Assembly: GCA_029776255.1 (NCBI GenBank)
Contig: JAKOTN010000159.1
Coordinates: 1-64,000 of the forward strand
Length of the DNA: 64,000 nucleotides
DNA from: Pseudomonadota bacterium
Lineage (GTDB): Bacteria; Pseudomonadota; Gammaproteobacteria; Burkholderiales; Rhodocyclaceae
Direction of reading: 5' to 3'
In this document: piece after piece, positions 18,234 through 59,633 of the stretch
Layout of the letters: each line of letters starts with the position of its first letter
Numbering within the stretch: the stretch's first letter is position 1
Notes under the pieces: model-generated
Told to the model about the DNA's origin: nothing
Database searches by the model: none
What the model saw: only the letters and a program-made list of their open reading frames with translations
Program-made: the position numbers and the translations under genes

Positions 18234-18460
18234 GGCTGGCTCGGCTCGGTGGCTACGGGGATTCGAATGCCGTTGTCGGCGAAGCCCGGCAGTTTGCCTC
18301 AAAACGAGCGTCATGCGCTGGATGACCGTGCCAAAAAATTCAAAATATTCCCGGTGTTTTCGGGACCACGGTTGGGGCGCGCGGCTGTACGCCGTGGGAT
18401 CGTGCGAAGGCGGGCACACCGCGAACTGGTGGTGGCGGACGTGGTGGTCAAAGTCTCCGG

Positions 18461-42453: not shown

Positions 42454-43986
42454 GTGTTTTCGCTGTTTGCGATGTTTGGATTGCGGCGATTGGTGTCGCT
42501 GGACAACAACGCGACGACGCGCGTCGCGCCGGCGGTGGCCAAGACCATGGTCAAGGTCTTGCGGACCTGCCATGGCAATCCTTCGTCGAACTACCGCCTC
42601 GCCCGCGATTCCGCCACCGTTCTTCAGGACGCGCGGCAACGGGTGGCGGAGGCGGTGGGCGCGGCGCCGGAAGAAATTGTGTTCACGGGCAGCGCCAGCG
42701 AGGCGAACAACCAGATTCTGATGTCGTGCGCCCGGCTCGGCCTGCCGGGCCGGACGACCATCGTTTCGACGCCCATCGAACATCCATCGGTGCTGGCGAG
42801 CCTGGACGACTTGCGCGCCCTGGGCGTGACCGTCGTCTTCTGCCCGGTCGATCGTCAGGGACGGATCGTTTTCGAGCAACTCGCCGCGCGGGTCGACGCG
42901 CGGACGCTGCTGGTGTGCTGCATGCTGGCCAACAATGAAACCGGAGTGGTGCAGGAAGTGCGGCGGGTCGCCGATCTGGCGCACCGGCACGGCGCGCTGG
43001 CGATGTCGGATTGCGTGCAGGCGCTGGGCAAGATTCCCGTCGACGTGCATCGACTGGGCGTCGATTTCGCCAGTTTTTCGGCGCACAAGATCCACGGTCC
43101 CAAGGGCGTGGGCGCGCTTTACGTCGGCGCGGGTCGACCGCTGCGGCCGCTGATCCACGGCGGGCATCAGGAAAACGGCTTGCGCGCGGGAACGGAAGCG
43201 GTGCACAACATCGCCGGCTTCGCGGCCGCGTGCCGAAATGTCGCCGCGCTGCTCGCCGCCGCCGGGCGCGTCGCCGAACTGCGCGACCGCCTTGCCGAGG
43301 GAATTGGCGACATCCTGCCGGCGGCGCGGGTCAATTCGCCCGCCGACGGCCTGGCCAACACCCTCAGCGTCACGCTGCCCGGCTTCGACAGCGCCGAAGC
43401 CATCGGCTTTCTCGATTACCACGGAATCAGCGTTTCGGCCGGATCGGCGTGCAACACCCAGGCCAACGAAGCGTCGCACGTGCTGAAAGCGGTGGGGCTT
43501 TCCGACGAAGACGCCCGGCAGACCTTGCGTTTCAGCCTGTCGGCGGCGACCACGGCGCGGGAAATCCGCTACGCGCTGAAGGTCTTGCGCGCCTATCTGC
43601 GGGGCGGCGACTTGCCGGTGAGCATGGTGCGCCCGGATCAGGTCGATGAACACCTGTTGACCAACGACGATCTTTTCGTGCTCGATATTCGTGCCGCCTA
43701 CGATCGCAAATTATTGAAGGGCTTGCCGAACGCGCACGAGGCGGCGACGCCGCTGTTCCTGAAACGCTACCTGCACGCGATTCCCCGGAACAAGCATATT
43801 CTGGTATTTTGCCAAGCCGGCACCGATGGGCCGATTGCCGCCTACTACCTGAAATCGAAAGGCTATCGCCATGTCGCCTTCGTGATGGGCGGCGCGCTGG
43901 GCTGGAAGCTGTTCCAGCCGGAACTGTACGAAAAACTGGGGGACCGTAACCGGATGCCGCTGAAGACGGAAAGCGGGACGACATGA
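42454..43986 (+). CDS. Cysteine desulfurase-rhodanese fusion
   Basis: 510 residues from a GTG with GGAGAGGGAA upstream. Residues 15-385 are NifS/IscS-type: SLDNNATTRVAP, HGNPSSNYRLARD, PLP Lys212 in SFSAHKIHGPKGVGALYVG, and the persulfide Cys333 in SAGSACNTQANEASH. Residues 395-490 form a rhodanese domain (LFVLDIRAAYDRKL) with Cys453 in LVFCQAGTDGPIAAYYLKSKG. The fusion should pass sulfur from cysteine to the rhodanese cysteine. No IscU, IscA or Fe-S operon is near; the fusion heads the lipid cluster and overlaps its next gene by four bases. It may supply Fe-S clusters or sulfur for the four radical SAM proteins, or a thiolated product. Confidence 0.9.
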   Translation: MFSLFAMFGLRRLVSLDNNATTRVAPAVAKTMVKVLRTCHGNPSSNYRLARDSATVLQDARQRVAEAVGAAPEEIVFTGSASEANNQILMSCARLGLPGRTTIVSTPIEHPSVLASLDDLRALGVTVVFCPVDRQGRIVFEQLAARVDARTLLVCCMLANNETGVVQEVRRVADLAHRHGALAMSDCVQALGKIPVDVHRLGVDFASFSAHKIHGPKGVGALYVGAGRPLRPLIHGGHQENGLRAGTEAVHNIAGFAAACRNVAALLAAAGRVAELRDRLAEGIGDILPAARVNSPADGLANTLSVTLPGFDSAEAIGFLDYHGISVSAGSACNTQANEASHVLKAVGLSDEDARQTLRFSLSAATTAREIRYALKVLRAYLRGGDLPVSMVRPDQVDEHLLTNDDLFVLDIRAAYDRKLLKGLPNAHEAATPLFLKRYLHAIPRNKHILVFCQAGTDGPIAAYYLKSKGYRHVAFVMGGALGWKLFQPELYEKLGDRNRMPLKTESGTT

Positions 43987-44465
43987 GATTCCACATGATC
44001 GACCGTATCGACGAGATTTGCGAGTGGCGCTACGTCACGGCGGTCAAGTGCATCAGCCTCGCCGACGATGTGTTCAACGAGCATTTTCCGGGTTACCCGA
44101 TTTTTCCGGGCAGCCTGATTCTGGAAGGATTGGCGCAGCTTGGCGGCGCGTTCTTCGAACTGGCGATGCTGCGCCGCGGCAACACCGTGAAACGCGCCGT
44201 GCTGACCGTGGTGCGGGAATTCAAGATCAGGAAACCGGCCGGCCCCGGCGATCGGCTGGACTACCGAGCTGATATCGTGACCATGCAGGAGGAGTTCGGC
44301 GTGGTGCGCGTCGCCGCGACGCTGGACGGCGAGGTCTGCGCCAAGGGCGAGCTGATGTTTAGCTTCGTCACCCCGCCAAACGACAAGATCAGGCAATCCC
44401 GCGAAGAGTTGTATGAAATCGTGACCCGGCAGACCCGGTATACCCAAAGTGAAGATCGTCCTTGA
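43983..44465 (+). CDS. FabZ-like 3-hydroxyacyl-ACP dehydratase
   Basis: 160 residues, hotdog fold. The active-site stretch is FNEHFPGYPIFPGSLILEGL with His34 and Glu48, matching FabZ (HFPxxPxxPGxLxxE). The C-terminal 25 residues (SREELYEIVTRQTRYTQSED) extend beyond FabZ. It should dehydrate 3-hydroxyacyl-ACP to trans-2-enoyl-ACP in the cytoplasm. It overlaps the genes on both sides, so it works with this cluster's ACP rather than being the housekeeping FabZ, which normally sits with lpx genes. Confidence 0.88.
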   Translation: MRFHMIDRIDEICEWRYVTAVKCISLADDVFNEHFPGYPIFPGSLILEGLAQLGGAFFELAMLRRGNTVKRAVLTVVREFKIRKPAGPGDRLDYRADIVTMQEEFGVVRVAATLDGEVCAKGELMFSFVTPPNDKIRQSREELYEIVTRQTRYTQSEDRP

Positions 44466-45042
44466 CGCCTATGCGCCCGGCGAGCGCATCCCCGTGCAGG
44501 CACACCTGCGGAACCGCAAGCTCGCCAAATACTTCAACCGCGAAACCGCCGCCGCGGTGGTCGCCGCCGCCAAGCTCCTGAACGGGCTGTCGTTCGATAG
44601 CCGGCGCCCCTTCTATTACGAAACCGGCGTGATGGCGTACGAAGATCTCGGCCTGGATCTGATCGCCGACGCCAGCCGTGACGACCAGAGGGGATTCAGC
44701 CAGCAGCGCTTCATCGACAACGGCGTCCGGGCGGTGCCGCCGCTGACCCAGTTCAAGGCGCTCTACAACATGCCGCTTTCCTTCGTCGCCATCGAACACG
44801 GCTTGACCGGCGAAAATGCGGTCATTTACGCCTCGGCCAGCGGGCTGTTGCTTCAGGCGCTTCAGGCGCCGGTATCGACCGGCATTCTGATCGGCTGCGG
44901 CAAGGTTTTTGCCGATGGCGGCGTCGAAGCCGGTTTTGCCTTGATCGACAAACAGGACATCGAACAGTCGCCGTTCCTGAATCACCCTGGCGAAGCGATC
45001 GAGATCTTCCGCGCCTGGCATGCCGACGGGAGCCGCGCGTGA
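44449..45042 (+). CDS. Ketosynthase-like protein lacking the catalytic cysteine
   Basis: 197 residues from a GTG inside the previous gene. Parts recall the N-terminal half of thiolase-fold ketosynthases (FIDNGVRAVPPLTQFKALYN, MPLSFVAIEHGLTGENAVIY and ASASGLLLQALQAPVSTGIL, then GCGKVFADGGVEAGFALID). At the place of the nucleophile there is ASASG, not Cys. The length is only half that of a ketosynthase. It resembles the KS-N only proteins and chain-length-factor-like partners found beside a real ketosynthase in aryl polyene and other type II lines. It directly precedes, and overlaps by four bases, the active ketosynthase. A role as chain-length or scaffold subunit is inferred. Confidence 0.7.
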   Translation: MKIVLDAYAPGERIPVQAHLRNRKLAKYFNRETAAAVVAAAKLLNGLSFDSRRPFYYETGVMAYEDLGLDLIADASRDDQRGFSQQRFIDNGVRAVPPLTQFKALYNMPLSFVAIEHGLTGENAVIYASASGLLLQALQAPVSTGILIGCGKVFADGGVEAGFALIDKQDIEQSPFLNHPGEAIEIFRAWHADGSRA

Positions 45043-46232
45043 GTCGCGTGTTCATTACCGGCGTCGGCGTGGTCTCGCCCCTGGGAACCGGTCTGGCCGA
45101 GTTCCGCGAGGGGCTGCATGCCAGCCGGCGCGGGGTCGATCGCATCACTTGCTTCGACACCTCGCATTTTCCGACCGCCTTCGGCGGCGAGGCGCGGGAA
45201 AACGGCCGCGTCGTCGCCAGCCCGCCGGCGGAAGACCGCAAGGCGCGTTTCATGCACACCGCGTTGCGGGAACTGTACCGCACCAGCGCCGTCGGCGATT
45301 ATCCGGCCAGCCGGCGACAGTTGCATCTGGGCGCCGGCATCGATTATTTCGATTTTCCCGGCTATGTCGAAAAAGCGGACGGCACGCCGTGGACGGCTTT
45401 CAGCCAGCGCGCCAATCGCGTGGTCGAGCGTCTGGCACGGGAATTCGCCGTCGATGGCGGTCACAGCGCCAATGTCGCCGCCTGCGTCGCGTCGACCCAG
45501 GCCATGGGTCTGGCCTTGCGGCGGATCCGCCGCGCGCCCGAGCAGGCGGTGATCAGCGGCGGCTTCGATTCGATGCTTTCGCATCTGCATTACATGGGTT
45601 TCTTCAATCTCGGCGCGCTGTCCAACTGGGCCGGCGAACCGGCCGGCGCCTGCCGCCCTTTCGACCGGCAACGTTGCGGTCTGGTGATCGGCGAAGGCGC
45701 GGTGGCCTATCTTTTGGAGAGCGACGCCACTGCCGACCCGAAAAACGTTCTCTGCGAGATCGCCGGCTATGGATCGACGATGGATGCCTACATGGTCACC
45801 GATCCGGAACCGAGCGGTCGCCACCTCGCCAACGCGGCGCTGGCGGCGATCCGGGACGCCGGCCTGACGCCCGACGACATCGACAGCGTCGACCTGCACG
45901 GCACCGGCACGGTGAAGAACGCCCTGGCCGAGGCCCGGGCGCTGGAACTGATCTTCCCGACGCGCTGGCGGGAAATTCCGGCATTCGCCCTCAAGGGGCA
46001 AATCGGGCATCTGATCGGCGCCTGCGGGGCCATGGAAGTGCTGGGGGTGATCGATGCGCTGCGGGAGCAACGCCTCCTGCCCAGCGTCAATTGCGACAAT
46101 CCCGATCCCGAAGTGCCTTTGCATATCGTCCGGGGAGAACCGCTGGCGATGAAAATTCGCCATGTGCTCAAGATCAACGCCGCTTTTGGCGGGCAGAACA
46201 CGGCGCTGGTGTTCCGGAAACATGAAGACTGA
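45039..46232 (+). CDS. Beta-ketoacyl-ACP synthase (FabF-like)
   Basis: 397 residues. Catalytic Cys149 (NVAACVASTQAMGLAL), His287 (SVDLHGTGTVKNALAEAR) and His324 (ALKGQIGHLIGACGAMEVLG) form the KAS II triad. It opens SRVFITGVGVVSPLGTGLAE. It should elongate acyl-ACP with malonyl-ACP. The sequence is clearly diverged from housekeeping FabF (shorter GTGT-following loop, altered cap GFDSMLSHLHYMGFFNLGAL), suggesting an unusual chain. With the preceding Cys-less protein it forms a KS/CLF-like pair. Confidence 0.9.
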   Translation: MSRVFITGVGVVSPLGTGLAEFREGLHASRRGVDRITCFDTSHFPTAFGGEARENGRVVASPPAEDRKARFMHTALRELYRTSAVGDYPASRRQLHLGAGIDYFDFPGYVEKADGTPWTAFSQRANRVVERLAREFAVDGGHSANVAACVASTQAMGLALRRIRRAPEQAVISGGFDSMLSHLHYMGFFNLGALSNWAGEPAGACRPFDRQRCGLVIGEGAVAYLLESDATADPKNVLCEIAGYGSTMDAYMVTDPEPSGRHLANAALAAIRDAGLTPDDIDSVDLHGTGTVKNALAEARALELIFPTRWREIPAFALKGQIGHLIGACGAMEVLGVIDALREQRLLPSVNCDNPDPEVPLHIVRGEPLAMKIRHVLKINAAFGGQNTALVFRKHED

Positions 46233-46244
46233 CGGATGGCCTGA

Positions 46245-46826
46245 ATGAACGCACACTTCGAGACCTTGCAAACGATCTGCGAAAACCGCCAGTGCCGGCG
46301 CCGTTTCGCCGACAGGCCGCTGGCCGACGACCTGATCGAGAAAATCCGGGCGGTGGGCTTGACCTCGCCCTACGCCTCGGGCAAGAAAAACTGGGAAATC
46401 ATGGTCATCACCGACCCAGCCGTGCGCGCGGCGATGGTGCGGACGGTCAAGCAGCGCGTCGATGAACTCCGGGCGGGTATCCGCCCGGATCTGGCCGACG
46501 ATTTCAGCACCTACGCCAGGAATTTCACCTCCTTCGCGGACGCTCCGGCGCTGTTTATCCCCACCTACCGGGTGGCGCCGTCGCTGTCGTTGATGTGCGA
46601 CGCCGCCGATGAACGGGTCGCGCGCTGGGAACGCGACAACTACGTCAAATCGATTTCCTGCGTGGCGATGCTGATTCTGCTGGCGGCGGAGAGTCTGGGG
46701 CTGGCGGCGTGTTACATGACCGGCGCGCTGATCGCGGAAGAGGAACTGGGTCGGCTGATCAAGGTGAAAACGGGCCGGAACATCGGCGCGATCATTCCGG
46801 TGGGTTACCGGATCGAACAGGAATAA
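46245..46826 (+). CDS. Nitroreductase-family FMN oxidoreductase
   Basis: 193 residues. The N-terminus has the FMN-phosphate arginines in NRQCRRRFADRPLADDLIEK, then SPYASGKKNWEIMVITDP. A C-terminal pattern SLGLAACYMTGALIAEEELG and NIGAIIPVGYR completes the fold. Such enzymes reduce nitro groups or quinones or oxidise heterocycles and C-C bonds with FMN. In this place it may act as an enoyl-ACP reductase substitute or a desaturase, since no FabI/FabV is in the cluster. The role is inferred. Confidence 0.85.
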   Translation: MNAHFETLQTICENRQCRRRFADRPLADDLIEKIRAVGLTSPYASGKKNWEIMVITDPAVRAAMVRTVKQRVDELRAGIRPDLADDFSTYARNFTSFADAPALFIPTYRVAPSLSLMCDAADERVARWERDNYVKSISCVAMLILLAAESLGLAACYMTGALIAEEELGRLIKVKTGRNIGAIIPVGYRIEQE

Positions 46827-46835
46827 GGGGAATCC

Positions 46836-47234
46836 TTGGTGGATATCGTGGCTATTGAACAACGCTTGCAGGAAGCGCTGCTGCCGGTTTTCGGGCTGGA
46901 CTCGGTCGAGGAATTGCCGGTCGACGCCTCGCTGGTCAACGACATCGGCGCCGACAGTCTGGATTTTGTCGAAATCACCTATTTGATCGAGCGCGATTTC
47001 GGCGTGGTGCTCAAACCGGGCGAACTGGTCGCCGCCGGCACCGCGATCGATACCGAGGATTTCTTCGTCGAAAGCCGGCTGACCGAAGCCGGCGCGGCGG
47101 CGCTGCGCCAGCAGTTGCCGGACGACAGCGGGCGCTTTGTCGCCGGAATGAGCAAGATCGAACTGTTCCGCTCGATCACGGTCCGCGATCTCGCCAACAT
47201 CATCCGGCGCCGCGGCGCCATGGCGGCGTCGTGA
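46836..47234 (+). CDS. Dedicated acyl carrier protein
   Basis: 132 residues, longer than the usual 78. The start is TTG or the GTG just after it, with AAGGGG upstream. The phosphopantetheine serine is Ser41 in LVNDIGADSLDFVEITYLIE, the canonical DSL-D/F setting. The region after about residue 75 (ESRLTEAGAAALRQQLPDDS, MSKIELFRSITVRDLANIIR) is an insertion or extended C-terminus, similar to ACPs of the FabZ-KS-ACP-KR lines in Geobacter-type and planctomycete clusters. It should carry the acyl chain through this cluster. Its stop overlaps the reductase start. Confidence 0.9.
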   Translation: MVDIVAIEQRLQEALLPVFGLDSVEELPVDASLVNDIGADSLDFVEITYLIERDFGVVLKPGELVAAGTAIDTEDFFVESRLTEAGAAALRQQLPDDSGRFVAGMSKIELFRSITVRDLANIIRRRGAMAAS

Positions 47235-47956
47235 TGCCGCGCGGGAAAACGGTATTCGTCACCGGCGGCACCGGCCACATCGGCATCGCCATCTGCCGCG
47301 CCTGTCACCGGCACGGCGCGCGAGTGATTTTTTCCTACCGCCGGCAACGACGGATCGCCGAGCAACTGCTGGCCGAATTGCCCGGCTCGCTGGCCGTCGA
47401 GCTCGATCTGCTCGACGTGCCGGCGATGCAGCGCGCCATCGACGCCTTGTACGCCCAGGTGGGAATCATCGACGTGCTGGTCAACAACGCCGGCATTTCG
47501 CAGGTGATGCCCTTGCCGCTGGTCGAGGAGGAGGATGTCGACCTGATCATGGACGTGAACATCAAAGGCACTTTTTTCGTCACCAAGAACGTGGTCAAAG
47601 GGATGATCCGCAACAAGGGCGGCGCGATCGTCAATGTCGGCTCCATCGCCGGCACGCGCATGTTCGAAGTGCCGGTGACTTACGCGATGACCAAGGCGGC
47701 GATTCACGGCTTGACCTTCGCGCTGGCCTCGGAATTGAAACGTTTCGGCATTCGCGTCAATTCCGTCGTTCCCGGTCTGATCGACGGCGGCGTCGGCGAA
47801 GGGGTGCCGGAGGCGCTGAAAAAGGATTTCGTCGCCCACTGCGCGGTCGGCCGAACCGGCCGGGCCGACGAAGTGGCCGAGACGATCTGCTTTCTCGCCA
47901 GCGATAAATCGAGTTATATCAACGGACAGAACATCGCAATCGACGGAGGGATCTGA
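47234..47956 (+). CDS. FabG-like 3-oxoacyl-ACP reductase (SDR)
   Basis: 240 residues. The Rossmann motif is VFVTGGTGHIGIAICRACHR, then NNAGISQVMPLP, catalytic Ser in IVNVGSIAGTRMFEV, and Tyr-Lys in TYAMTKAAIHGL. It ends with SSYINGQNIAIDGGI, as in FabG. It reduces 3-oxoacyl-ACP with NAD(P)H. The TGGTGHIG variant and position in the cluster suggest specificity for this cluster's ACP. Start: a GTG three bases upstream is equally possible. It overlaps both neighbours. Confidence 0.92.
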   Translation: MPRGKTVFVTGGTGHIGIAICRACHRHGARVIFSYRRQRRIAEQLLAELPGSLAVELDLLDVPAMQRAIDALYAQVGIIDVLVNNAGISQVMPLPLVEEEDVDLIMDVNIKGTFFVTKNVVKGMIRNKGGAIVNVGSIAGTRMFEVPVTYAMTKAAIHGLTFALASELKRFGIRVNSVVPGLIDGGVGEGVPEALKKDFVAHCAVGRTGRADEVAETICFLASDKSSYINGQNIAIDGGI

Positions 47957-49356
47957 TGGGCGGCAACGAGGCGATCTATCTGCGCTCGACCATCGCTTAC
48001 TGCGCGCATTGCGAAAAAACCGAATTTGCCCGGATCATGGCCCGTGCCGACGGGGTGTTCATGGAGCGAGTCTGCCCGGCCAAGGGAACGGCCCGCGTCA
48101 AGATCGCCAAGAATGCCGCCTGGTACACGGCAAGGATGTCGCGCCCGCGTGTCGTCGAAGCGGACGGTAGCGGCAAACCGTCGCAAAAAGGCTGCCCCTT
48201 CGATTGCGGCCCGTGCCAATGGCACACCGGCAAGCTGCATCTGCCCGTTTTTTCGATCACCAACGATTGCAATCTCGATTGCCCGATCTGTTTCACCTAC
48301 AACCGCCCCGACCATAAGTATTTCAAAACCGTGGCCGAGACCGAACAGATCGTCGACCACATCCTGGCGCGATCCGGCGGCGTGCAGTTGATCAACCTCA
48401 CCGGCGGCGAGCCGACGCTGCATCCCGATCTATTCGCCATCTTCGACGCCTGCCGCCGGGAAGGTATCGGGCGGATCACCATGAACACCAATGGGATCAA
48501 GATCGGCGGCGACCGGCGTTTCGCCGAGCGGATCAAGGACGCCGGCGTGCAGGTGGTGCTGTCGCTCGACACGCTCAATCCGACAAAAAGTCTGCTCATC
48601 CACGGCAAGGACATCACCCGTGCGAAACGGAAATGCCTGGAAAACCTGGAGGCGCTCGACATTCCGACCACCATCCTGCCGGTATGCATCAAGGGCTGCA
48701 ACGAGGCCGACGTGCTGGACATCGTGCATACCCATCTCCGCAAACCCTTTGTACGCAGCATCACCGTGCAGAACATGACTTTTACCGGCGCCAACGGTCG
48801 CCAGTTCAAGCCGCATGACCATATCACCCTCGACGAGGTCGAGGAATTGCTGGCCCAGCGGGAGGGTATTTCCCAGAGCGATTTTTTTGTTTTGTCCTCC
48901 TATCACCCCCTTTGTTACTCGGCGAGCTACTACATCGTCCGCGACGATCTGCTGATTCCATTGGCCGACCTGCTGGAGCCGGAGGTGCTGGCGGAACTGT
49001 CGGCCGGCTCCTACATTCTCAACCCGGAACGCGATCTTTCCAACGAGTTTCGTGCCGGAGTCAATCGTTTGTGGGCGGCGGGCGCCGACGACCGGACGCT
49101 GGCCGCGCTCCGTGCCTTCCTGGCGGCGCTGTATCCGGCCGATCGCGTGTTGCCGGCGAGCGAACGGAAGGCGCTGCTCGAGCGCTGGATAAAAATGCTC
49201 CTGATCCATCCGCACATGGATAGCGACAATTTCGATATCGATCGGGTCAGTTCCTGTGGCGATCTGGTGCCCGACGAGGACGGACGAATGATCCCCGCCT
49301 GCGCCTACAACCTTCTGTACCGTCAGAAGGATTCGCGCTTCTGGCGAGAGCCGTGA
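47956..49356 (+). CDS. Radical SAM protein, tetraether synthase (Tes/MJ0619)-like
   Basis: 466 residues. Radical SAM motif CNLDCPIC at Cys105, Cys109 and Cys112 (CX3CX2C), with the glycine-rich LTGGEPTLHPDLF. In front are a second CX3CX2C (GCPFDCGPC, Cys80/84/87) and CX2C plus Cys40 (YCAHCEK ... RVCPAKG), the layout of Tes/GDGT-MAS of archaea: a rubredoxin-like iron site and an additional Fe-S cluster before the SAM domain. Late cysteines (RVSSCGDLVPDEDGRMIPAC) suggest one more. Tes couples lipid chains by C-C bond formation. Here the likely substrate is the cluster's acyl chain. It may be a methyltransferase-type enzyme instead. Confidence 0.88.
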   Translation: MGGNEAIYLRSTIAYCAHCEKTEFARIMARADGVFMERVCPAKGTARVKIAKNAAWYTARMSRPRVVEADGSGKPSQKGCPFDCGPCQWHTGKLHLPVFSITNDCNLDCPICFTYNRPDHKYFKTVAETEQIVDHILARSGGVQLINLTGGEPTLHPDLFAIFDACRREGIGRITMNTNGIKIGGDRRFAERIKDAGVQVVLSLDTLNPTKSLLIHGKDITRAKRKCLENLEALDIPTTILPVCIKGCNEADVLDIVHTHLRKPFVRSITVQNMTFTGANGRQFKPHDHITLDEVEELLAQREGISQSDFFVLSSYHPLCYSASYYIVRDDLLIPLADLLEPEVLAELSAGSYILNPERDLSNEFRAGVNRLWAAGADDRTLAALRAFLAALYPADRVLPASERKALLERWIKMLLIHPHMDSDNFDIDRVSSCGDLVPDEDGRMIPACAYNLLYRQKDSRFWREP

Positions 49357-50087
49357 ACCGGTCCTTGCTCCTCGCCTGTCTGCTGGCCACGCCATGCGCG
49401 AACGGCGCGCAGCCGCCGGACACCGCGTCGCTATTGACAAAGATGGCCGCGAATCACGCTCAACTTCAGGATTACACCTGCGAGATCAGCCGCCAGGAAC
49501 TGTTCAAGGGTAAACAGCGGGAACTGCCGAACGTGGTGTTCAAATACAAGCGTCCCGCCCGCTATTACATGAAGTGGCCGGATGACGGGATCGAGGCGAT
49601 TTACGTTGAAGGAAAATACGACAACCGGATGGTGATTCACGGCGGACTTCTGTTCAGCTTCGCCAGCGTCGCCGTCGACCCGAAGGTGGCGCTGAACCAC
49701 GGTCGTCACACCCTGCCGGAAGCCGATCTCGGCAATATCATCAAGATTTTCGAAGACAACACGCGCCGGGCCAGCAAGGACCCGGAGGCCAAGATCGCTT
49801 ATGACGGCGACGAGGATCTGGAAGGCCGACCGGCCTGGCGCTTCAAGGCGGTCTTTCCGCCGAACAAGGGGTATTACGGCCACGTCGTGCGCGTGCACGT
49901 CGACCAGCACTATGTCCTGCCGGTGCGGATCGAGGTGCGCGGCTGGCAGAACGAGTTGCTGGAAAGTTATCGCTATTCGTCGCTGAAGCGCAATGTCGGG
50001 CTGAGCGAGGCCGATTTCGACGTGAAAAATCCTGCCTATATGTTCCGGCTGGGGAATCGCGCGGTGGACAGCAATGAACCGCGCTGA
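49353..50087 (+). CDS. Secreted DUF1571 (LolA-like) protein
   Basis: 244 residues from a GTG overlapping the previous stop. Signal peptide-like start (RSLLLACLLATPCANGAQ). The mature part (LQDYTCEISRQELFKGKQRE, NVVFKYKRPARYYMKWPDDG, AWRFKAVFPPNKGYYGHVVR) fits DUF1571, a family with the LolA/LppX-like half-barrel expected to bind lipid. It has a cysteine near the start (TPCANG) but no clear lipobox. Aryl-polyene-type clusters carry LolA-like proteins in the same manner. I infer that it carries the product across the periplasm. Confidence 0.8.
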   Translation: MNRSLLLACLLATPCANGAQPPDTASLLTKMAANHAQLQDYTCEISRQELFKGKQRELPNVVFKYKRPARYYMKWPDDGIEAIYVEGKYDNRMVIHGGLLFSFASVAVDPKVALNHGRHTLPEADLGNIIKIFEDNTRRASKDPEAKIAYDGDEDLEGRPAWRFKAVFPPNKGYYGHVVRVHVDQHYVLPVRIEVRGWQNELLESYRYSSLKRNVGLSEADFDVKNPAYMFRLGNRAVDSNEPR

Positions 50088-50658
50088 GCAATGCGCCGTT
50101 CTTCGGCGGTCCTTGCAGGCGTTTCTGCGCGGAACGAGCCGAAAATTCGAATTCGACATCGACTGCCCGGTCGAGGAACGCATCCGCTTCATCTATGCGG
50201 TGGTTTTTCCCGGGTGGGCCAAACTCCGCTTTTATCTGGTTTTTGCCGTCTCGCGGCTGGCCGGGGCGATCGACTATTCGCCGATCAAGGTGTTTCTCTA
50301 TCGCCTGATCGGCATGAAAATCGGCAAGGGCGTGTTCATCTCGCCCGGCGTGATTCTCGACCCGCATTTTCCCGCCTTGATCGAAATCGACGACTATGCC
50401 ATCGTCGGCTGGGGAACGCATCTGTTCACCCACGAATTCAGCGGCTCGCGCTACACCATCGGCCGAATCCGCATCGGTCGTGGAGCGGTCATCGGCGGCT
50501 TTTCCATCGTTCGCGGCGGCGTGGTCATCGGCGCCAATGCGCAGGTGGCGTCGACCTGTATCGTTTACAAAGACGTTCCGGACAATTACTGCGTCGACAG
50601 CGTGATCCTGCTCAATCGGGCGCTGCTCGATGTCTATCGGAAGGAAATCAATGGCTAG
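50074..50658 (+). CDS. Hexapeptide-repeat acyltransferase (LbH family)
   Basis: 194 residues. The N-terminal 60 residues are helical; the left-handed beta-helix follows (KIGKGVFISPGVILDPHFPA, IEIDDYAIVGWGTHLFTHEF, RIRIGRGAVIGGFSIVRGGV, VIGANAQVASTCIVYKDVPD). The catalytic His in WGTHLFTHEF is at the usual spot. The family uses acyl-CoA or acyl-ACP as donor and many acceptors (sugars, amino acids). Its place between the DUF1571 and second Tes-like gene suggests it transfers or modifies the cluster's acyl product. It overlaps both neighbours. Confidence 0.85.
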   Translation: MNRAEQCAVLRRSLQAFLRGTSRKFEFDIDCPVEERIRFIYAVVFPGWAKLRFYLVFAVSRLAGAIDYSPIKVFLYRLIGMKIGKGVFISPGVILDPHFPALIEIDDYAIVGWGTHLFTHEFSGSRYTIGRIRIGRGAVIGGFSIVRGGVVIGANAQVASTCIVYKDVPDNYCVDSVILLNRALLDVYRKEING

Positions 50659-52039
50659 CGTCGTTCACCACCACACCCAGGCGCTCTGCCCGACCTGCCG
50701 GGCCAAAGTGACCGCCCGCGCGGTGGAACGGGGCGGGCAGGTGTTCCTGGAAAAATTCTGTCCGGAACACGGCTTTTCCGACGTGCTGATTTCATCGGAC
50801 GCCACGTGGTACCGGAACAGCATGAAGTACGTCAAACCGGGCCAGGCGCCGCGCGAAATCGCCGTCACCGACTTTCGCGGCTGCCCCGAATCGTGCGGAT
50901 CGTGCCCGCAACATCAGCAACATACCTGTCTGCCGATGATTGAAATCACCACCGACTGCAATCTTTCCTGTCAGGTGTGCCTGAAGCATCTCGGCGCGCC
51001 CTGGCGAATGAGCAAAACCGAGTTTTCGTCCATCGTCGACACGCTGATCCGTTGCGAGGGGCAGGTGGATGTTCTCAACATCAGCGGCGGCGAACCGACC
51101 TTGCACCCCGAATTGCTCGATTTTCTGCGCCTCGCGCGCGACCGCGGCGTGGTGCAGTCGACGGTATCGACCAACGGCCTGGCCTTGCTGAAAAAACCGG
51201 CGCTGCGGCGAGGGTTCAAGGAAACCGGCGCCATCGTCGCGCTCCAGTTCGACGGTTTCCAGCCACGCACCTGGACCGTGCTGCGCGGCATGAATCTGAT
51301 CGACAAGAAACTGGAACTGATCCGTTGCCTGGAGGACGAAGGAGTCCGCTATTCGCTGGTGACCACCTTGGCCAACGGCGTCAATGCCGGCGGCGACTGC
51401 GACGAAATCGCCAGAATCGTCGATTTCTTCTTCCGTTCGCAGGCCGTCAGCCTGATGTTCCAGCCCATTGCCCTGACCGGGACGGCGGAAGATTTCGGTT
51501 CGCAGGTCCGGCTGACGATTCCCGACGTGGTGCACGCCATTGAAAAATGCGCCCAGGTTGAACAAGGCGATTTCAACCCCCTGCCCTGCTCGCATTATTC
51601 GTGTTTTGCCCTGGCCTATTACTTCATTCTCGGCGACGGCCGTTTCCTGAGCCTGAAGCAATTTCTCGGCGAGGAAAACTACCTCGACCTGATCGCCAAC
51701 CGGACCTTGCCGGGGCTGGACGACGCCGGGTTCGCCACGATCCGCGATCGCCTGTACGACATCTGGTCGCTGGCCGACGCCGGCTCGCTGGGCGAACAAG
51801 CCTTGCAACGCATTCAGCAGGTGTTGCGCGCCGCCGCTTCCGAGAAATTGTCGCCGCAACGCCTGATTTCACTGGGCGCGGAATCGATGAAAGCCATTTT
51901 CATTCACGATTTCATGGATGCCGCCACCCTCGATTTCGGGCGTCTGATCAAGTGCTGCAATCCCTACCCGCAAACCGACGGCCGTCTGGTTCCGATATGC
52001 GCGCAAAACATCTTCTTTCAAGGAAACCGCCGTGCGTGA
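50651..52039 (+). CDS. Second Tes/MJ0619-like radical SAM protein
   Basis: 462 residues from the ATG at 50651 (AAGGAA upstream). N-terminal iron site: Cys13/Cys16 (LCPTCRAKV) and Cys37 (FCPEHGFSD). Second CX3CX2C: Cys78/82/85 (GCPESCGSC), plus Cys93 (HTCLPMIE). Radical SAM motif: Cys103/107/110 (CNLSCQVC), with ISGGEPTLHPELLDFLR. Very similar layout to the protein at 47956 and to archaeal Tes, closer to Tes by the CPEHG and CPQHQQHTC segments. The C-terminus (KCCNPYPQTDGRLVPICAQN) carries further Cys. Two such enzymes in a row suggest sequential radical couplings or methylations on the lipid chain. Confidence 0.9.
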   Translation: MASVVHHHTQALCPTCRAKVTARAVERGGQVFLEKFCPEHGFSDVLISSDATWYRNSMKYVKPGQAPREIAVTDFRGCPESCGSCPQHQQHTCLPMIEITTDCNLSCQVCLKHLGAPWRMSKTEFSSIVDTLIRCEGQVDVLNISGGEPTLHPELLDFLRLARDRGVVQSTVSTNGLALLKKPALRRGFKETGAIVALQFDGFQPRTWTVLRGMNLIDKKLELIRCLEDEGVRYSLVTTLANGVNAGGDCDEIARIVDFFFRSQAVSLMFQPIALTGTAEDFGSQVRLTIPDVVHAIEKCAQVEQGDFNPLPCSHYSCFALAYYFILGDGRFLSLKQFLGEENYLDLIANRTLPGLDDAGFATIRDRLYDIWSLADAGSLGEQALQRIQQVLRAAASEKLSPQRLISLGAESMKAIFIHDFMDAATLDFGRLIKCCNPYPQTDGRLVPICAQNIFFQGNRRA

Positions 52040-53045
52040 GATGACCAAAAAAATTAAGTTCGCCAGCGCTTTCATGCACAAGGAGATGGTGCATCTCAAT
52101 CTGCAATTGCTTTACGAATGCAACTTTCGGTGCCGGATTTGCGATTTCTGGAAGCCGCGCTTCAAGGACATGCCGAAGCTGTCGGTCGCCGACATCGAGG
52201 TGATGGCAAAAAAACTGCCGGGACCGATGATCGTGTCCATCGGTGGCGGCGAACCGATGATGCACCCGGATCTGACCGACATCATCCGCGTTCTCGCCCG
52301 CGACAACTTTCCGGTGATGATCTGCAACGGCTGGTACGTGACGCCGGAAAACGCGCGTGCGGTCTTCGAGGCCGGCCTCCACGAAATCAGCATCTCGGTG
52401 GATTATGCCGATCCCGCCAGGCACGACAAGCAGCGCGGCATGAAAGGCGCGTTCGACCGCGCGGTGAAAGCCCTTGAAACACTTCATGAAAACCGGGTTC
52501 ATCCCCACCAGCGGGTGCATATGATTTCGGTGGTGATGAACGACAACGTGGACGAAATCGAACCGCTGATCCTGTTGGCCAAGGAAATCGGCGTCACTTA
52601 TCTGGTCACCCACCACAGTTCCAACCGCGGCAAGAAACCCCGTCGCGATTCGGCGGACAGGGACGTCAGCGCGCATTTGCTGGAACTGCGCAAGAAGCAC
52701 GGCAATTTCGTCGCCTGCCGAGGTTTTCTGGAGCGATTTACCGAGGCCCAGCGTTCTCCGGACGGAATCAAGCCCTGCTACGCCGGCAAGAATCTGTTCA
52801 ATATCGACTGCCAGGGCAATGTCACTCGCTGCATCGATCGCCTCGACCAGGTCGCCGGTAATATCCTCCGCGACGACTACGAGGATATCGCTTCCAAACT
52901 GCTGGCGTTTCAGGCCGCCGACGATTGCGGCGACTGCTGGACGAGTTGCCGCGGCTGGTTCGAAACCCTGATGTACGGCAAGAACCGGATACGGAATCTG
53001 GTCGACAGCTATCAGGTCACCCGCAAACTGCCACTGGTGCAATGA
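52032..53045 (+). CDS. Radical SAM protein with SPASM-like C-terminus
   Basis: 337 residues from a GTG with AAGGAAACC upstream. Motif CNFRCRIC (Cys30/34/37), followed by IGGGEPMMHPDLTDIIRVLA. The C-terminal part has a Cys series (FNIDCQGNVTRCIDRLDQ, DDCGDCWTSCRGWF) that should bind an auxiliary Fe-S cluster as in SPASM proteins. It lacks the Tes-type N-terminal sites. It overlaps the second Tes-like gene by eight bases and the methyltransferase by four. Substrate unknown; it may modify the acyl chain or the head group. Confidence 0.88.
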   Translation: MREMTKKIKFASAFMHKEMVHLNLQLLYECNFRCRICDFWKPRFKDMPKLSVADIEVMAKKLPGPMIVSIGGGEPMMHPDLTDIIRVLARDNFPVMICNGWYVTPENARAVFEAGLHEISISVDYADPARHDKQRGMKGAFDRAVKALETLHENRVHPHQRVHMISVVMNDNVDEIEPLILLAKEIGVTYLVTHHSSNRGKKPRRDSADRDVSAHLLELRKKHGNFVACRGFLERFTEAQRSPDGIKPCYAGKNLFNIDCQGNVTRCIDRLDQVAGNILRDDYEDIASKLLAFQAADDCGDCWTSCRGWFETLMYGKNRIRNLVDSYQVTRKLPLVQ

Positions 53046-53695
53046 GCGGCGGCTGCCCGCGTCGCGCGTGGGCCTGGCTGCGAGCCAACGGTCAACGGCT
53101 GATCGACTATTACCTGCTCGCCAATGTCGCCGCCTTTGTCGCGTGGCAGGGTTTCGGCATCTTCCGGGCGGGACGCCTCGATCTGGGCGAAATTTCCTTC
53201 ATCGTTCCCAATCTGGTGCTGGCCTGGTTCATTCTGGTGCGACAGCGGTTTGTGGCCATTGACCGCGATTGCTGGCATCAGGCCATCGCCCTGGTGGCGT
53301 TCTTTTCCGGCGTCGCCTTCATGGGCCAACCCGCCACCGCCGGCCCAATCGCCGTTGTGGTTTCACAGGCTTTACTGCTGATCGCCAACCTGCTCGGTCT
53401 CGTCACCCTGTTCAACCTCGGCACCAGCTTCGGGATTTTGATTGCCTGCCGGCAGGTCAAGACCGGCGGACTGTATCGTTACCTGCGCCACCCGATGTAC
53501 GCCACCGATATCCTGCTGCGCATCGGTTATCTGATCGGCCACCGCACCCTGTTGACGGTCAGTCTGTTCGTGCTGTCCACGGCCTGTTACGTCTGGCGTG
53601 CGATTCTCGAAGAACGCTTTCTGGCCGCACAAGGGCCGGCGTATCGGGCCTACATGGCGCGGGTTCGCTACCGCTTCATTCCCGGCGTGTTTTGA
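53042..53695 (+). CDS. ICMT/PEMT-like membrane methyltransferase
   Basis: 217 residues with five to six helices. The SAM-binding hallmark of isoprenylcysteine carboxyl methyltransferase relatives is TGGLYRYLRHPMYATDILLR near residue 145, followed near the C-terminus by the acidic EERFLAAQGPAYRAYMARVR. Members methylate carboxylates, amines or phospholipids at the inner membrane. In this cluster it may methylate an acyl carboxylate or an amine head group. Start overlaps the radical SAM stop by four bases. Confidence 0.85.
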   Translation: MSGGCPRRAWAWLRANGQRLIDYYLLANVAAFVAWQGFGIFRAGRLDLGEISFIVPNLVLAWFILVRQRFVAIDRDCWHQAIALVAFFSGVAFMGQPATAGPIAVVVSQALLLIANLLGLVTLFNLGTSFGILIACRQVKTGGLYRYLRHPMYATDILLRIGYLIGHRTLLTVSLFVLSTACYVWRAILEERFLAAQGPAYRAYMARVRYRFIPGVF

Positions 53696-53704
53696 GGCCC
53701 GGCC

Positions 53705-54754
53705 TTGAATTCCTTCTTCAAGTATCTTTACCACCGCTGCGTCGACGGCGAGTCGCGCTGGTATCCGCTATTGGCGATTTATTACCTGACCTACCGCTGC
53801 ACGTTTCGCTGTCCCTATTGCAGCAACGGCGCCAACCAGCCTTATCACCGCCTGCCGGTCAAGGCGGTCGATGCGGCTACGGCGCTCGAAATCCTGCGCC
53901 GCATCCGTCGACACAGCGAACACTTGGTCATCACCGGCGGCGAACCGCTCGAACATGCCGATGTCGGCGAAGTCTTGCGCCGTTTGCCGGCCCTGAAATT
54001 CAAAACCGTCGCGTTCACCACCAACGGCCACGATCTCGACCGCCATTTGCCCGAAATCGCGGCGGCGATCGATACGCTGGTGGTCAGCCTGGATACGCTG
54101 GAGGTGCGCAAGGCCGATGCCTGGTTTGGTCAAGGCGATGGCGCGCTGACTAAAATCCTGACCAATATCGAGGCCGCCGCCGCGTATCGCCACCGGCGGT
54201 ACGAAATCGTCATTTCCGCCGTCGCCACCCCGAACAATATCCCGGATTTGCACGCCGTCCATCGCTACGCCCAGGAACGAGGCTTTCAACTGGCCGTCTG
54301 CCCGGAACTTCAAGGGGTCAAAGCGCCTGAAAGGCTGCGTCACCACCCGGATTACAAGGCTTTTTTCAATTTTCTTGTCGATGAAAAGAAAAGAGGACAG
54401 GCGATTTTTGGCTCGACGCTTTATCTGGAACACATGCGCGACTTCCGGGCGTTCCGGTGTCACCCCTTCGCCATGCTGGCGGTTGATCCGCGGGGCGAGA
54501 TTTTTTTCCCGTGCCTGGAAATCGGCCAAATGGCAGGCAACATTCTCGACCACGACGATCTCCACGCCGTCCGCCGCGCCGCGCACAAAAATCGCGTCTT
54601 GCCGGCCGGTTTCGGCACCGATAACGATACCGGCAGCCCAAACAGCGGTACCGATTGCCGCGCCAGTTGCCACTCGGCGTGCGCCCTTGGGTTCTCGCTG
54701 GCGATCGAACACCCGTGGTCGGCGGCGGCTGATACACTGCGGAGCCGGATTTGA
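53705..54754 (+). CDS. Radical SAM protein (fourth of the cluster)
   Basis: 349 residues from a TTG at 53705. Motif CTFRCPYC (Cys32/36/39), then VITGGEPLEHADVGEVLRRL. C-terminal cysteines FRCHPFAMLAVDPRGEIFFP, CLEIG and DCRASCHSACALG make an auxiliary-cluster binding region, as in SPASM/twitch enzymes. Spacing of 9 bp after the methyltransferase. It is similar in layout to the protein at 52032 but not a close copy. The last radical SAM gene of the run; substrate unknown. Confidence 0.86.
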   Translation: MNSFFKYLYHRCVDGESRWYPLLAIYYLTYRCTFRCPYCSNGANQPYHRLPVKAVDAATALEILRRIRRHSEHLVITGGEPLEHADVGEVLRRLPALKFKTVAFTTNGHDLDRHLPEIAAAIDTLVVSLDTLEVRKADAWFGQGDGALTKILTNIEAAAAYRHRRYEIVISAVATPNNIPDLHAVHRYAQERGFQLAVCPELQGVKAPERLRHHPDYKAFFNFLVDEKKRGQAIFGSTLYLEHMRDFRAFRCHPFAMLAVDPRGEIFFPCLEIGQMAGNILDHDDLHAVRRAAHKNRVLPAGFGTDNDTGSPNSGTDCRASCHSACALGFSLAIEHPWSAAADTLRSRI

Positions 54755-54821
54755 TGTCCGGCTTGGTTGTCTCCCCTGCGCCATCGCGGCGATTTTCCCG
54801 TTGAAGAAAGCCTCCTCCGCC

Positions 54822-55787
54822 ATGCTCCCCACGCTCGACGAAATTACCGACGCCGCCACGATCATTTACCGGGCGATGCCGCCGACGCCGCAATATTGCT
54901 GGCCCCTGCTATGCGAACGACTCGGCGCCGAGGTGTGGGTCAAACACGAAAACCACACGCCGGTGGGCGCCTTCAAACTCCGCGGCGGACTGGTTTACTT
55001 CGCCGATCTGGCCCGGCGCACGGGACTCAAGGGCGTGGTGACCGCCACGCGCGGCAATCATGGCCAGTCGGTGGCCATGGCCGCGAAACGCCACGGTCTT
55101 TCCGCCACAGTCGTCGTGCCGCACGGCAACAGCCTGGAGAAGAATGCGGCGATGCGCGCCCTGGGAGCGGAACTGGTCGAGTACGGCAACGATTTTCAAG
55201 CCTCGCGCGAACAGGCGGCGCGAATCGCCGAGGAACACTCCCTGCACCTGGTTCCAGCCTTCCACCCCTCGCTGCTCCGGGGTGTCGCCACCTATAGCAT
55301 GGAGCTGCTACAGGCGGTTCGGGACCTCGATACGGTCTACGTGCCGATTGGCCTGGGGTCCGGAATTTGCGGCCTGGTCGCGGCGCGAAACGCCTTGGGG
55401 CACCGCGCGGAGATCGTTGGCGTCGTTTCCTCGCAGGCCCGCGCTTACGCGGCCTCGTTTGCCGCGAAAGCGGTCGTCGAGGCTGAAGTCAGCACCTCGC
55501 TGGCCGACGGCATGGCGTGCCGCACACCGGTACCGGAAGCGTTGGAAATCATTTGGCGGCATGTCGATCGAATCGTTGAAGTCAGCGACGACGAAATCGC
55601 GGCAGCCATTCGGGTCCTGCACGAGTGCACGCATAACTGCGCCGAGGGGGCCGGCGCGGCGGGCTTGGCCGCCGCGATCAAGGAACGGCGGGCCGTGACC
55701 GGACGTAAAGTGGCGTTCGTGCTTTCCGGCGGCAATATCGATCGCCAAACCTTCGCCCAAGTGTTGTGCGAAACCTCGACCGCATGA
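54822..55787 (+). CDS. Threonine dehydratase-like PLP enzyme
   Basis: 321 residues from the ATG at 54822. Fold-type II PLP features: catalytic Lys in NHTPVGAFKLRGGLVYFADL, the phosphate site in GLGSGICGLVAARN, TRGNHGQSVAMAAKRHG and late ALSGGN-like VLSGGNIDRQTF. It has the catalytic domain of threonine/serine dehydratase (IlvA/TdcB) but lacks the ACT regulatory domain. Position 67 bp after the last radical SAM gene, same strand. It may give 2-oxobutyrate or propionyl precursors for odd-chain starters in the lipid pathway, or be simply an unlinked catabolic gene. Confidence 0.85.
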   Translation: MLPTLDEITDAATIIYRAMPPTPQYCWPLLCERLGAEVWVKHENHTPVGAFKLRGGLVYFADLARRTGLKGVVTATRGNHGQSVAMAAKRHGLSATVVVPHGNSLEKNAAMRALGAELVEYGNDFQASREQAARIAEEHSLHLVPAFHPSLLRGVATYSMELLQAVRDLDTVYVPIGLGSGICGLVAARNALGHRAEIVGVVSSQARAYAASFAAKAVVEAEVSTSLADGMACRTPVPEALEIIWRHVDRIVEVSDDEIAAAIRVLHECTHNCAEGAGAAGLAAAIKERRAVTGRKVAFVLSGGNIDRQTFAQVLCETSTA

Positions 55788-58954: not shown

Positions 58955-59094
58955 CGTCGTCCTCATCGATTGAAAACGCATGCGAATATCCGCGTGCGGT
59001 TGAGTGGTTTTTTTAAAAAACAATTGTCAGCCAAGGTCTTCTGATAGGTATTAACGAATAAAAATTAGCTGAAAGCAATTCGCGGAATCATTCC

Positions 59095-59424
59095 TTAACA
59101 CTTGCCTGCCTTTTTTAGTAAAGCATTGCAGGAATTGCCGGCGCTCTTGCTGCCGACCTCATTGCAAATCGCGTCCGACGACTCGCCGATCGACGTATAA
59201 GAAAAATATCCTTCCACATAACAGTTATATTTCTTCCCCGTTTTCGTGGTCACCAGATAAACCGCCTGCGCTCCTTCATTCTGGCGATTTGAAATGGTGA
59301 ATTCGTTTTTATCAAGCCCGAGTGCAAACGCGGTTCTTTTCACTATGGCATCGTCGGTGGCCAGTTTAGCGCATCCCACCACCGCGATCACAAGAAATAC
59401 TGGAAATATTTTTTTGACTTTCAT
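59095..59424 (-). CDS. Small lipoprotein, unknown
   Basis: 109 residues. Lipoprotein signal peptide with lipobox: KIFPVFLVIAVVGCAKLATD (Cys18). The mature part has four further cysteines (NCYVEG, AICNEV, NSCNALLKKAGKC), probably in disulfides in the periplasm. It carries a short beta-strand pattern (AVYLVTTKTGKKYNCYVEGY). No family recognised. The gene is AT-richer than its neighbours. Confidence 0.75.
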   Translation of the reverse strand: MKVKKIFPVFLVIAVVGCAKLATDDAIVKRTAFALGLDKNEFTISNRQNEGAQAVYLVTTKTGKKYNCYVEGYFSYTSIGESSDAICNEVGSKSAGNSCNALLKKAGKC

Positions 59425-59633
59425 TTACTCATTTCTCCAGAGCATGATTGCTGACATCGAACTCACCACATAAAATAAAGTGAATAAATTTTATGAGTGT
59501 GCCTTGGCAACAATCAACCTTCTTTCCACCAATCGCCGCCACTCGTCTGCAAATGGAGTGGAAATCCGCGAACAGCTTGAAATCGACGATGAACGGCAGT
59601 CCAGCGGGTTCCTAGCGGGGAGATAATCGCCGC

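Follow-up and report, generated by a model that had tools for sequence, protein, structure and literature searches.

Aryl polyene clusters join a ketosynthase (KS) and a KS-like partner to a ketoreductase (KR), a dehydratase (DH), an acyl carrier protein (ACP) and a LolA-like protein, and carry in addition aryl starter genes (ammonia lyase, AMP ligase) and an MMPL-type exporter; to our knowledge, they are without radical S-adenosylmethionine (SAM) genes. The candidate ladderane loci of Kuenenia stuttgartiensis and Desulfotalea psychrophila have been described as containing type II fatty acid synthesis (FASII) genes, altered KS paralogues, several radical SAM genes, phytoene-desaturase-like genes and one B12-binding radical SAM gene (PMC2649909, PMC4790861). 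For the archaeal radical SAM tetraether synthase Tes (GDGT-MAS, MJ0619; structures 7tol and 7tom), the reported ligands are those of a rubredoxin-like CX2C...CX2H site, an N-terminal auxiliary cluster (C/C/C/H), the radical SAM motif CX3CX2C, and a C-terminal cluster with a labile Met439, beside Tyr459 (PMC9433317). In bacteria, Zeng et al. reported 456 Tes homologues, with a role in branched glycerol dialkyl glycerol tetraether (brGDGT) synthesis proposed for follow-up (PMC8941075), and a 2025 paper described the activity of such homologues as unconfirmed (PMC11868695). The bacterial membrane-spanning lipid synthase Mss is reported to couple fatty acyl chains and proposed to act with Ger on glycerolipids (PMC13274423). 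Here, we analyzed the first 64,000 nucleotides of contig JAKOTN010000159.1 (the window; assembly GCA_029776255.1, a Rhodocyclaceae member of the Pseudomonadota), in which 14 genes at positions 42454 to 54754 set two Tes-like radical SAM proteins, Tes1 and Tes2, beside a KS/ACP line of their own. By description, coupling of acyl chains would be shared with Mss, whereas the substrates proposed for Mss, acting with Ger, are glycerolipids. The cluster probably makes an undescribed carbon-carbon-linked lipid. No published account of a Tes pair with a KS/ACP line was found among the papers listed in searches of open-licence literature, which does not prove its absence from print.

Relatives of the cluster were sought through its Tes proteins (G and L numbers are our designations of genomes and loci). 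In the class of the window's genome, 11 of 369 genomes (its own included) had a Tes2-like match at E ≤ 1e-20, and of these only G299 held both Tes types besides the window; in the phylum, 12 of 398 genomes had a Tes1-like match at E ≤ 1e-30, with two copies only in the window's genome. Further loci came from the phylum sample of G802, a Polyangiaceae metagenome-assembled genome (31/282 genomes at E ≤ 1e-60), the order sample of G962 (2/14 at E ≤ 1e-80), the phylum sample of the Pirellulaceae genome G806 (47/343 at E ≤ 1e-60) and the phylum sample of G803 (15/329 at E ≤ 1e-115, of which the G802 sample had already yielded ten). We take the phyla of the sampled loci to be Myxococcota (Polyangiaceae seed) and Planctomycetota (Pirellulaceae seed). 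Multi-copy and strongest matches rather than every match were taken (G1572, for example, was left out), giving a final matrix of 31 loci, with loci carrying both Tes types recounted at E < 1e-10 for the Tes genes. Both types were found in 23 loci, the window included. KS and DH were also present in 18 of these, along with KR (18), ACP (17), a KS-like gene (16) and a nitroreductase (14). The eight other rows were split or short pieces (G929a, G929b, G1309a, G1309b, G1219a, G1219b, G1499 and G801b), G929a holding only a 114-bp Tes1 piece at a contig edge and not being counted as a locus with both types. Three G804 fragments, L066, G803 contig C63, G1219c, G1491b, G1230b, G1042a, L071, L082 and L086 stayed outside the matrix. 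Among the five loci with both Tes types and no KS, G967 and G869 were on contigs of only 11.9 and 6.3 kb, G875 stopped, with a DH, at the end of a 16-kb contig, and G1543 began at a contig end and had an ACP; the fifth, G1042, is weighed below. A sequence-only reading that preceded this analysis had proposed a neighborhood comparison as its check, and the co-occurrence it predicted was found: KS and DH accompanied both Tes types in 18 of 23 loci, versus a KS in the flanks of one of 31 lone Tes-like loci (L082; 1 of 20 when at least 8 kb on both sides was required). All 31 lone loci had a single Tes copy. These were set aside as evidence for the cluster, eight stretches around them being without KS, KS-like, DH, ACP and nitroreductase genes. 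Because the gene set recurs in other phyla, the arrangement goes beyond chance, and the cluster is almost certainly a conserved functional unit.

The loci fell into loose groups, among which two subtypes could be distinguished. Subtype A was defined by clades of Tes1, Tes2 and the third radical SAM protein, rSAM3 (eight members each including the window; support 1.0, 0.999 and 1.0), and comprised the window, G1098, G962 and G929 from the Myxococcota sample, and G1219, G1463, G1510, G1309 and G1499 from the Planctomycetota sample. All four radical SAM families, together with DH, KS, KS-like, nitroreductase (NTR), ACP and KR genes, were found in single loci of G1098, G1463 and G1510, and across two contigs in G1219; in G1309 the four radical SAM families were spread over two contigs, with KS and DH not found in the stretches read. 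The order was KR-Tes1-Tes2-membrane protein-rSAM4-rSAM3-hydrolase-ACP-KR-KS-KS-like-DH-NTR in G1098, and DH-KS-like-KS-KR-NTR-ACP-KR-Tes1-LbH-rSAM4-rSAM3-Tes2 in G1463 and G1510 (LbH, left-handed beta-helix acyltransferase), where a second short DH-like stretch preceded Tes1. G1219 additionally carried an ICMT-type methyltransferase gene and a NifS-like gene, so that every window gene family but DUF1571 recurs in at least one relative. Subtype B (G299, G802, G803, G1032, G1021 and G1539) had two KS and two KS-like genes, with a class-III aminotransferase in five of the six and a fatty-acid-hydroxylase-like gene in three. Loci outside both subtypes had one KS, several with aminotransferases. 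A 241,035-base contig carries the related cluster of G299, a genome of the window's class. Between the nitroreductase and ACP genes of this cluster there is what by eye is a type I restriction-modification set, placed as an insertion would be (L048 10656-18092). A membrane protein of ~270-310 amino acids (aa) goes with the Myxococcota clusters, by sequence match in G1098 (L137/L138 border) and G962 (L126 16144-17007) and by eye only in G1004 and G835 (perhaps L123 11054-11998 and L118 3956-4882); it was not found in the window. A 1419-aa protein resembling activator/dehydratase-type ASKHA proteins by eye (L126 6070-10329) adjoins the subtype-A cluster of G962.

Among proteins of solved structure, Tes1 and Tes2 best matched 7tol, the Methanocaldococcus jannaschii tetraether synthase (Table 1), with runners-up at 9.5e-7 and 4.6e-6, respectively, in keeping with the label "Tes-like" given to them earlier. 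By their sequences, Tes1 and Tes2 are two paralogue clades: in a tree of 81 Tes-type proteins, 22 Tes1 and 15 Tes2 sequences formed two clades (support 1.0 and 0.969) that joined each other at a weak support of 0.502, and both window proteins grouped with those of G962 and G929. The ligand positions of archaeal Tes were mapped onto 31 Tes1 and 28 Tes2 sequences. The radical SAM CX3CX2C motif and the three Cys and one His of the N-terminal auxiliary cluster were invariant in all 31 and all 28. The ligand Cys of the C-terminal cluster, read off the alignment rather than from coordinates, were present at the three aligned positions in 31, 30 and 30 of 31 Tes1 (one sequence being cut) and in 28/28 Tes2, whereas among 44 other family members the first was missing in 22 and the last in 22. 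The last position of the rubredoxin-like site was His in 26, Cys in four and Lys in one of the Tes1 sequences, and His in 18 and Cys in 10 of the Tes2 sequences, the site being complete in window Tes2. Tyr459 was kept in 26/28 Tes2, window Tes2 included. The conserved C-terminal Cys fit a reaction related to that of archaeal Tes. Unlike the archaeal enzyme, Tes occurs here as two close-set paralogues beside a KS/ACP line, and unlike the lone bacterial genes it is not single-copy. In one Myxococcota and one Planctomycetota locus (L117 13557-14924; L149 10713-12068), a third Tes-like type lay near Tes1/Tes2-type genes; its residues are Met where archaeal Tes has Met439 and His where that enzyme has Tyr459. 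Two subtype-B Tes2 proteins appeared by eye to bear a second N-terminal rubredoxin/zinc-ribbon unit (L038 11633-13441, 602 aa; L067 17161-18900, 579 aa).

Co-inheritance was assessed by correlating patristic distances, using one copy per cluster with split clusters joined and 9999 permutations. Tes1 and Tes2 distances were closely correlated (r = 0.90, 24 clusters, reached in 0 of 9999 permutations), and correlations were also found for Tes2-KS (r = 0.79) and Tes1-KS (r = 0.62; 18 clusters each), as well as for Tes1-rSAM3 (r = 0.75) and Tes2-rSAM3 (r = 0.63; 16 clusters each), with r reached in 0 or 1 of 9999 permutations. A smaller KS tree placed the window KS with G962 and G1098 at a node support of just 0.026, and the best tblastn scores of the window KS among the loci compared were to the subtype-A clusters of G1098 and G962. 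Within 60 relatives, 27 of them of the same genus, no match above 40% identity was among the matches listed; the best same-genus match among those listed was in G007 (35%, E 5.6e-51, against 3.5e-272 for the self-match). By tblastn, the KSs of G835, G1004, G962 and G1098 scored 223-237 bits, versus 173 for the G007 protein (L010) and no more than 180 for nine FabF-type loci. A vertically inherited housekeeping operon was rejected on these weak same-genus KS matches and the scarcity of Tes in the class. The cluster looks acquired within its genus, with lateral arrival likely, and we claim no donor.

Several observations weigh against Tes-type coupling on a co-inherited acyl line. Window Tes1 and Tes2 scored 197 and 222 bits against the Tes model NF045702, under half of its cut-off of 450, and higher, 217 and 243 bits, against the TrsS model NF045646 of their wider bacterial family, itself with a cut-off of 490. 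About half of the other family members retain the C-terminal Cys, so these residues alone do not single out the Tes1/Tes2 clade. The Met439 position was His in 30/31 Tes1 (one cut) and 26/28 Tes2, both window proteins included; the 26 were those with Tyr459, and the two exceptions were divergent third copies. Archaeal Tes with M439A is reported to remain active (PMC9433317). The Tyr459 equivalent was lost in all 30 readable Tes1, being Val in the window, and window Tes1 alone had Lys for the rubredoxin-site His. Replacement of Met439 by His and loss of Tyr in Tes1 argue for a different substrate or step. The G1042 locus, read over 55 kb, has the Tes pair, a KR, an aminotransferase and rSAM3, and is a real miss for KS, DH and ACP. 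The KS-rSAM3 correlation was weak (r = 0.35, 12 clusters, reached in 33 of 9999 permutations), and a larger KS tree grouped the window KS with G1251, G1004, G835, G1529, G1491 and G1335 (support 0.999), outside subtype A, by which a simple co-inheritance of the whole set is not fully supported. It may also be that the Tes pair works on glycerolipids, once the chain has been released.

Glycerolipids as substrates define the first alternative, in which the Tes pair would join the tails of ordinary glycerolipids into membrane-spanning (bola) lipids and the FASII genes would serve only as the source of a special acyl chain for them. Lipid-tail coupling is the reaction of archaeal Tes (PMC9433317), a brGDGT role has been proposed for bacterial homologues (PMC8941075, PMC11868695, PMC10087280), and head groups could be modified by the LbH acyltransferase and the ICMT-type methyltransferase. 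However, Pfam recognized no ether-lipid or glycerolipid-backbone gene among the 14, this Tes clade has a conserved KS/ACP line beside it while 30 of 31 lone Tes-like loci had no KS in their flanks, and Met439, in Tes1 also Tyr459, is replaced; we consider this alternative unlikely. A second alternative follows the older "class D methyltransferase / HMPTM" reading, by which the Tes-like enzymes would be methylases or other hydrogen-abstracting tailoring enzymes that yield a branched or oxidized fatty acid. TrsS as the top NCBIfam score and an N-terminal match to Zn_ribbon_HMPTM, which exceeds the cut-off in Tes2 but not in Tes1, are in its favor, but the archaeal prototype MJ0619 is reported to be a C-C coupling enzyme (PMC9433317) and the C-terminal Cys are kept in all readable Tes1 and Tes2, making it rather improbable.

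By sequence, the elongation genes form a type II line: its KS has an intact Cys-His-His triad and is paired with a Cys-less KS-like protein, and beside them stand a KR, a FabZ-type DH and a long ACP of the cluster's own. The sequence-only reading had called this a full type II fatty acid elongation set; the five components stood, and "full" was an overstatement because no recognized enoyl reductase is present. Its statement that malonyltransferase, FabI and thioesterase are missing agreed with the Pfam results, in which no such family appeared in the 13 proteins other than g03. Cys149 of the KS, which it had pointed out, was intact in the alignment, likewise His287 and His324, and in the partner g03, Ala occupied the nucleophile position when aligned with full-length relatives. 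With 197 aa, g03 is short compared to those relatives (282-404 aa as trimmed, save one 690-aa read-through) and had zero matches in Pfam and NCBIfam at E ≤ 0.001; its fold model was unusable as support (pLDDT 54.8), the best Foldseek matches being ketosynthases at E ≥ 0.075, and it is by alignment that g03 is classed as KS-like. Long ACPs were also present in two related clusters (133 and 146 aa; L048, L067). Short motifs, which we take to be active-site motifs, were found in DH, ACP, KR, rSAM3 and rSAM4 (Table 1). The nitroreductase family includes C=C reductases, and g05 is a possible enoyl reductase.

This line is the part of the cluster that most recalls aryl polyene synthesis, and a third alternative is a conjugated polyene pigment or antioxidant of that kind, which the radical SAM enzymes would only decorate, forming no C-C bond. 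The two systems share a KS with a Cys-less KS-like gene (the latter occurring in 16 of the 18 KS- and DH-containing loci), KR, DH, ACP, a predicted LolA-fold protein and the lack of a recognized enoyl reductase. They differ in that aryl starter and exporter families (ammonia lyase, AMP ligase, MMPL) were not found by Pfam in the 14 proteins, and in the presence here of a nitroreductase and four conserved radical SAM enzymes, two of which keep auxiliary-cluster Cys, which exceeds what decoration would need; we give a polyene a low probability. Radical folding of a polyene chain into fused small rings by ladderane-like logic is very improbable, for although radical SAM enzymes likewise occur with FASII genes and KS paralogues of altered active site in the K. 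stuttgartiensis loci, compared by description (PMC2649909, PMC4790861), the phytoene-desaturase-like genes of those loci have no counterpart among the 14 proteins here, in which, as had been noted from the sequence, no amine-oxidase/desaturase Pfam family was detected, and the Tes-type pair would set the window cluster apart. A KS-like protein in an Omnitrophota contig (L082 19363-20592) carries Phe in place of the nucleophile and Asn in place of the first catalytic His; it adjoins a KR and lies ~8 kb from a lone Tes-like gene. As Phe163/Asn298 are listed for the anammox protein Kuste2805 (PMC2649909), the L082 protein may be related to this unexplained paralogue.

Table 1. Genes of the cluster in the window and the matches, motifs or alternative starts on which their descriptions rest.
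Gene	Description	Position	Strand	Evidence
g01	Cysteine desulfurase (NifS/IscS type)-rhodanese fusion	42454..43986	+	PF00266 E 2.6e-69; PF00581 E 4.3e-6; alternative ATG 42472
g02	FabZ-type hydroxyacyl-ACP dehydratase (DH)	43983..44465	+	PF07977 E 1.5e-18; FabZ models under cut-offs; HFPGxPxxPG motif
g03	KS-like partner (N-terminal half, 197 aa), no nucleophile Cys	44449..45042	+	Alignment to full-length KS-like proteins of related clusters
g04	Ketosynthase (KS)	45039..46232	+	PF00109/PF02801; Cys149-His287-His324; best solved match FabF-type 1e5m E 4.3e-57
g05	Nitroreductase-family flavoprotein (NTR)	46245..46826	+	PF00881 E 8.1e-18; weak BluB/FbiB-type matches
g06	ACP, 132 aa	46836..47234	+	PF00550 E 1.2e-8, residues 9-70; GADSL motif
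g07	FabG-type ketoreductase (KR, SDR)	47231..47956	+	PF13561 E 4.9e-56; YAMTK motif
g08	Tes1, tetraether-synthase-like radical SAM	47956..49356	+	NF045702 197 bits, NF045646 217 bits, both under cut-off; 7tol E 4.9e-40
g09	DUF1571, predicted LolA/RseB-like fold, candidate lipid carrier	49353..50087	+	PF07608 E 1.2e-31
g10	Left-handed beta-helix (LbH, hexapeptide) acyltransferase-like	50074..50658	+	PF00132
g11	Tes2, tetraether-synthase-like radical SAM	50630..52039	+	NF045702 222 bits, NF045646 243 bits, both under cut-off; 7tol E 2.8e-54; ATG 50651 possible
g12	rSAM3, radical SAM with further Cys in C-terminal part	52032..53045	+	PF04055 E 3.3e-22; CNFRCRIC
g13	ICMT/PEMT-type membrane methyltransferase	53042..53695	+	PF04191 E 5.1e-10; PF04140 E 3.2e-6
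g14	rSAM4, radical SAM (MoaA/SPASM-like)	53705..54754	+	PF04055 E 3e-17; CTFRCPYC

The 14 genes sit on a 228-kb contig of a 3.79-Mb genome. The open reading frame (ORF) list and the family scans (Pfam, NCBIfam) bore out the earlier description of 14 mostly overlapping genes on one strand: 10 of 13 neighboring pairs overlap by 1-17 bp with the starts listed per gene (for g10/g11 this becomes 29 bp when 50630 rather than 50651 is taken as the g11 start), and the three remaining gaps are 9-12 bp. A later ATG of g12 would convert one overlap to a 1-bp gap. A promoter and terminator scan gave no signal above shuffled expectation, and the GC content of the cluster is not distinctive. The four radical SAM proteins, nitroreductase, ICMT, DUF1571, acyltransferase and desulfurase-rhodanese that had been recognized by eye each have Pfam support. 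A threonine dehydratase gene downstream (54816-55787) was rejected as a cluster member: relatives at 56-71% exist in four more genomes of its genus, and a search of three of these four detected no gene of the 14-gene cluster within ~1.5 kb of the relative. Elsewhere in the window, a 1399-aa ORF at 14220-18419, ~24 kb from the cluster, resembles by eye an AMP-binding protein of nonribosomal peptide synthetase (NRPS) type, and the kilobase 59000-59999 has a GC content of 46%, versus ~55-60% in the adjoining kilobases, near a PEP-CTERM-like protein and a small lipoprotein-like ORF (both by eye).

DUF1571 is rare, being found in 3 of 120 genomes of the order, the window's own included. The fold model of g09 (pLDDT 67.9 from a three-row alignment) retrieved RseB, MucB, LolA and LprG in Foldseek at E 1e-7 to 1e-5 (TM 0.26-0.51 by query length), which with moderate confidence agrees with its earlier description as lipid-carrier-like. 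Since LprG appears with bound lipids in Protein Data Bank titles and g09 models as an LprG-type fold, transport of a lipid product by g09 is plausible. Homologues of g10 occur in the clusters of G1463, G1510 and G1219 (39-52%). rSAM3 matched seven subtype-A relatives at 46-55% and G299 at 35%, and rSAM4 matched G1098 and G1309 at 49-50% and G1463, G1510, G1219 and G1499 at 31-34%. In G1219, an ICMT relative at 51% adjoins Tes2. The NifS-like gene (36%) follows downstream of the split cluster, ~1.7 kb past the ICMT gene and separated from it by a gene on the opposite strand. Among the 31 matrix loci a NifS-type gene was found in the window and G1219 only, and any NifS could match in this way, so sulfur as part of the common chemistry is unsupported.

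We hypothesize a new radical-modified lipid as the product, as the sequence-only reading had done from the same genes. A radical-modified acyl product of some kind is quite likely, and we see about an even chance that the cluster makes a dedicated lipid or polyketide-type acyl chain with a skeleton altered by Tes-type radical C-C coupling. Host FabD and phosphopantetheinyl transferase would serve the ACP, on which the KS/KS-like line would build an unsaturated or hydroxylated chain. Such a chain is to be expected from the resemblance to reducing type II polyketide or aryl polyene logic: a Cys-less KS-like protein accompanies the KS, KR and DH are single, and an enoyl reductase is not recognized. 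The nitroreductase perhaps reduces selected double bonds, setting the reduction pattern. Tes1 and Tes2 may abstract hydrogen from unactivated carbons, park the radical on the auxiliary [4Fe-4S] cluster of their C-terminal part and create C-C bonds, by ring closure within a chain or by cross-linking two chains, and rSAM3 and rSAM4 could tailor the product further. In our judgment, C-C bond formation by Tes1 and Tes2 themselves is nearly an even proposition. In the window version, the LbH acyltransferase would acylate, the ICMT methylate and the LolA-like DUF1571 protein move the product, with g01 possibly supplying sulfur to the Fe-S-rich enzymes.

FASII-plus-radical-SAM lipid clusters are already known, and the chemistry here has a real chance of being a new class. 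More tentatively, we propose a new class of assembly line in at least three phyla, in which two Tes-type paralogues would weld unactivated carbons of private ACP-derived chains, built by KS and KS-like proteins, into carbocyclic or cross-linked (bola) lipids unknown to chemistry; this would tie a bacterial Tes clade to a defined non-glycerolipid substrate. As the Tes pair with its own acyl-building line is set apart from the lone genes, expression of one compact operon would allow what at least one bacterial Tes clade does to be tested. Should the two enzymes prove to form sp3-sp3 C-C bonds on carrier-made chains, they would offer a route to unusual lipids, biomarkers and enzymes that couple unactivated carbons.

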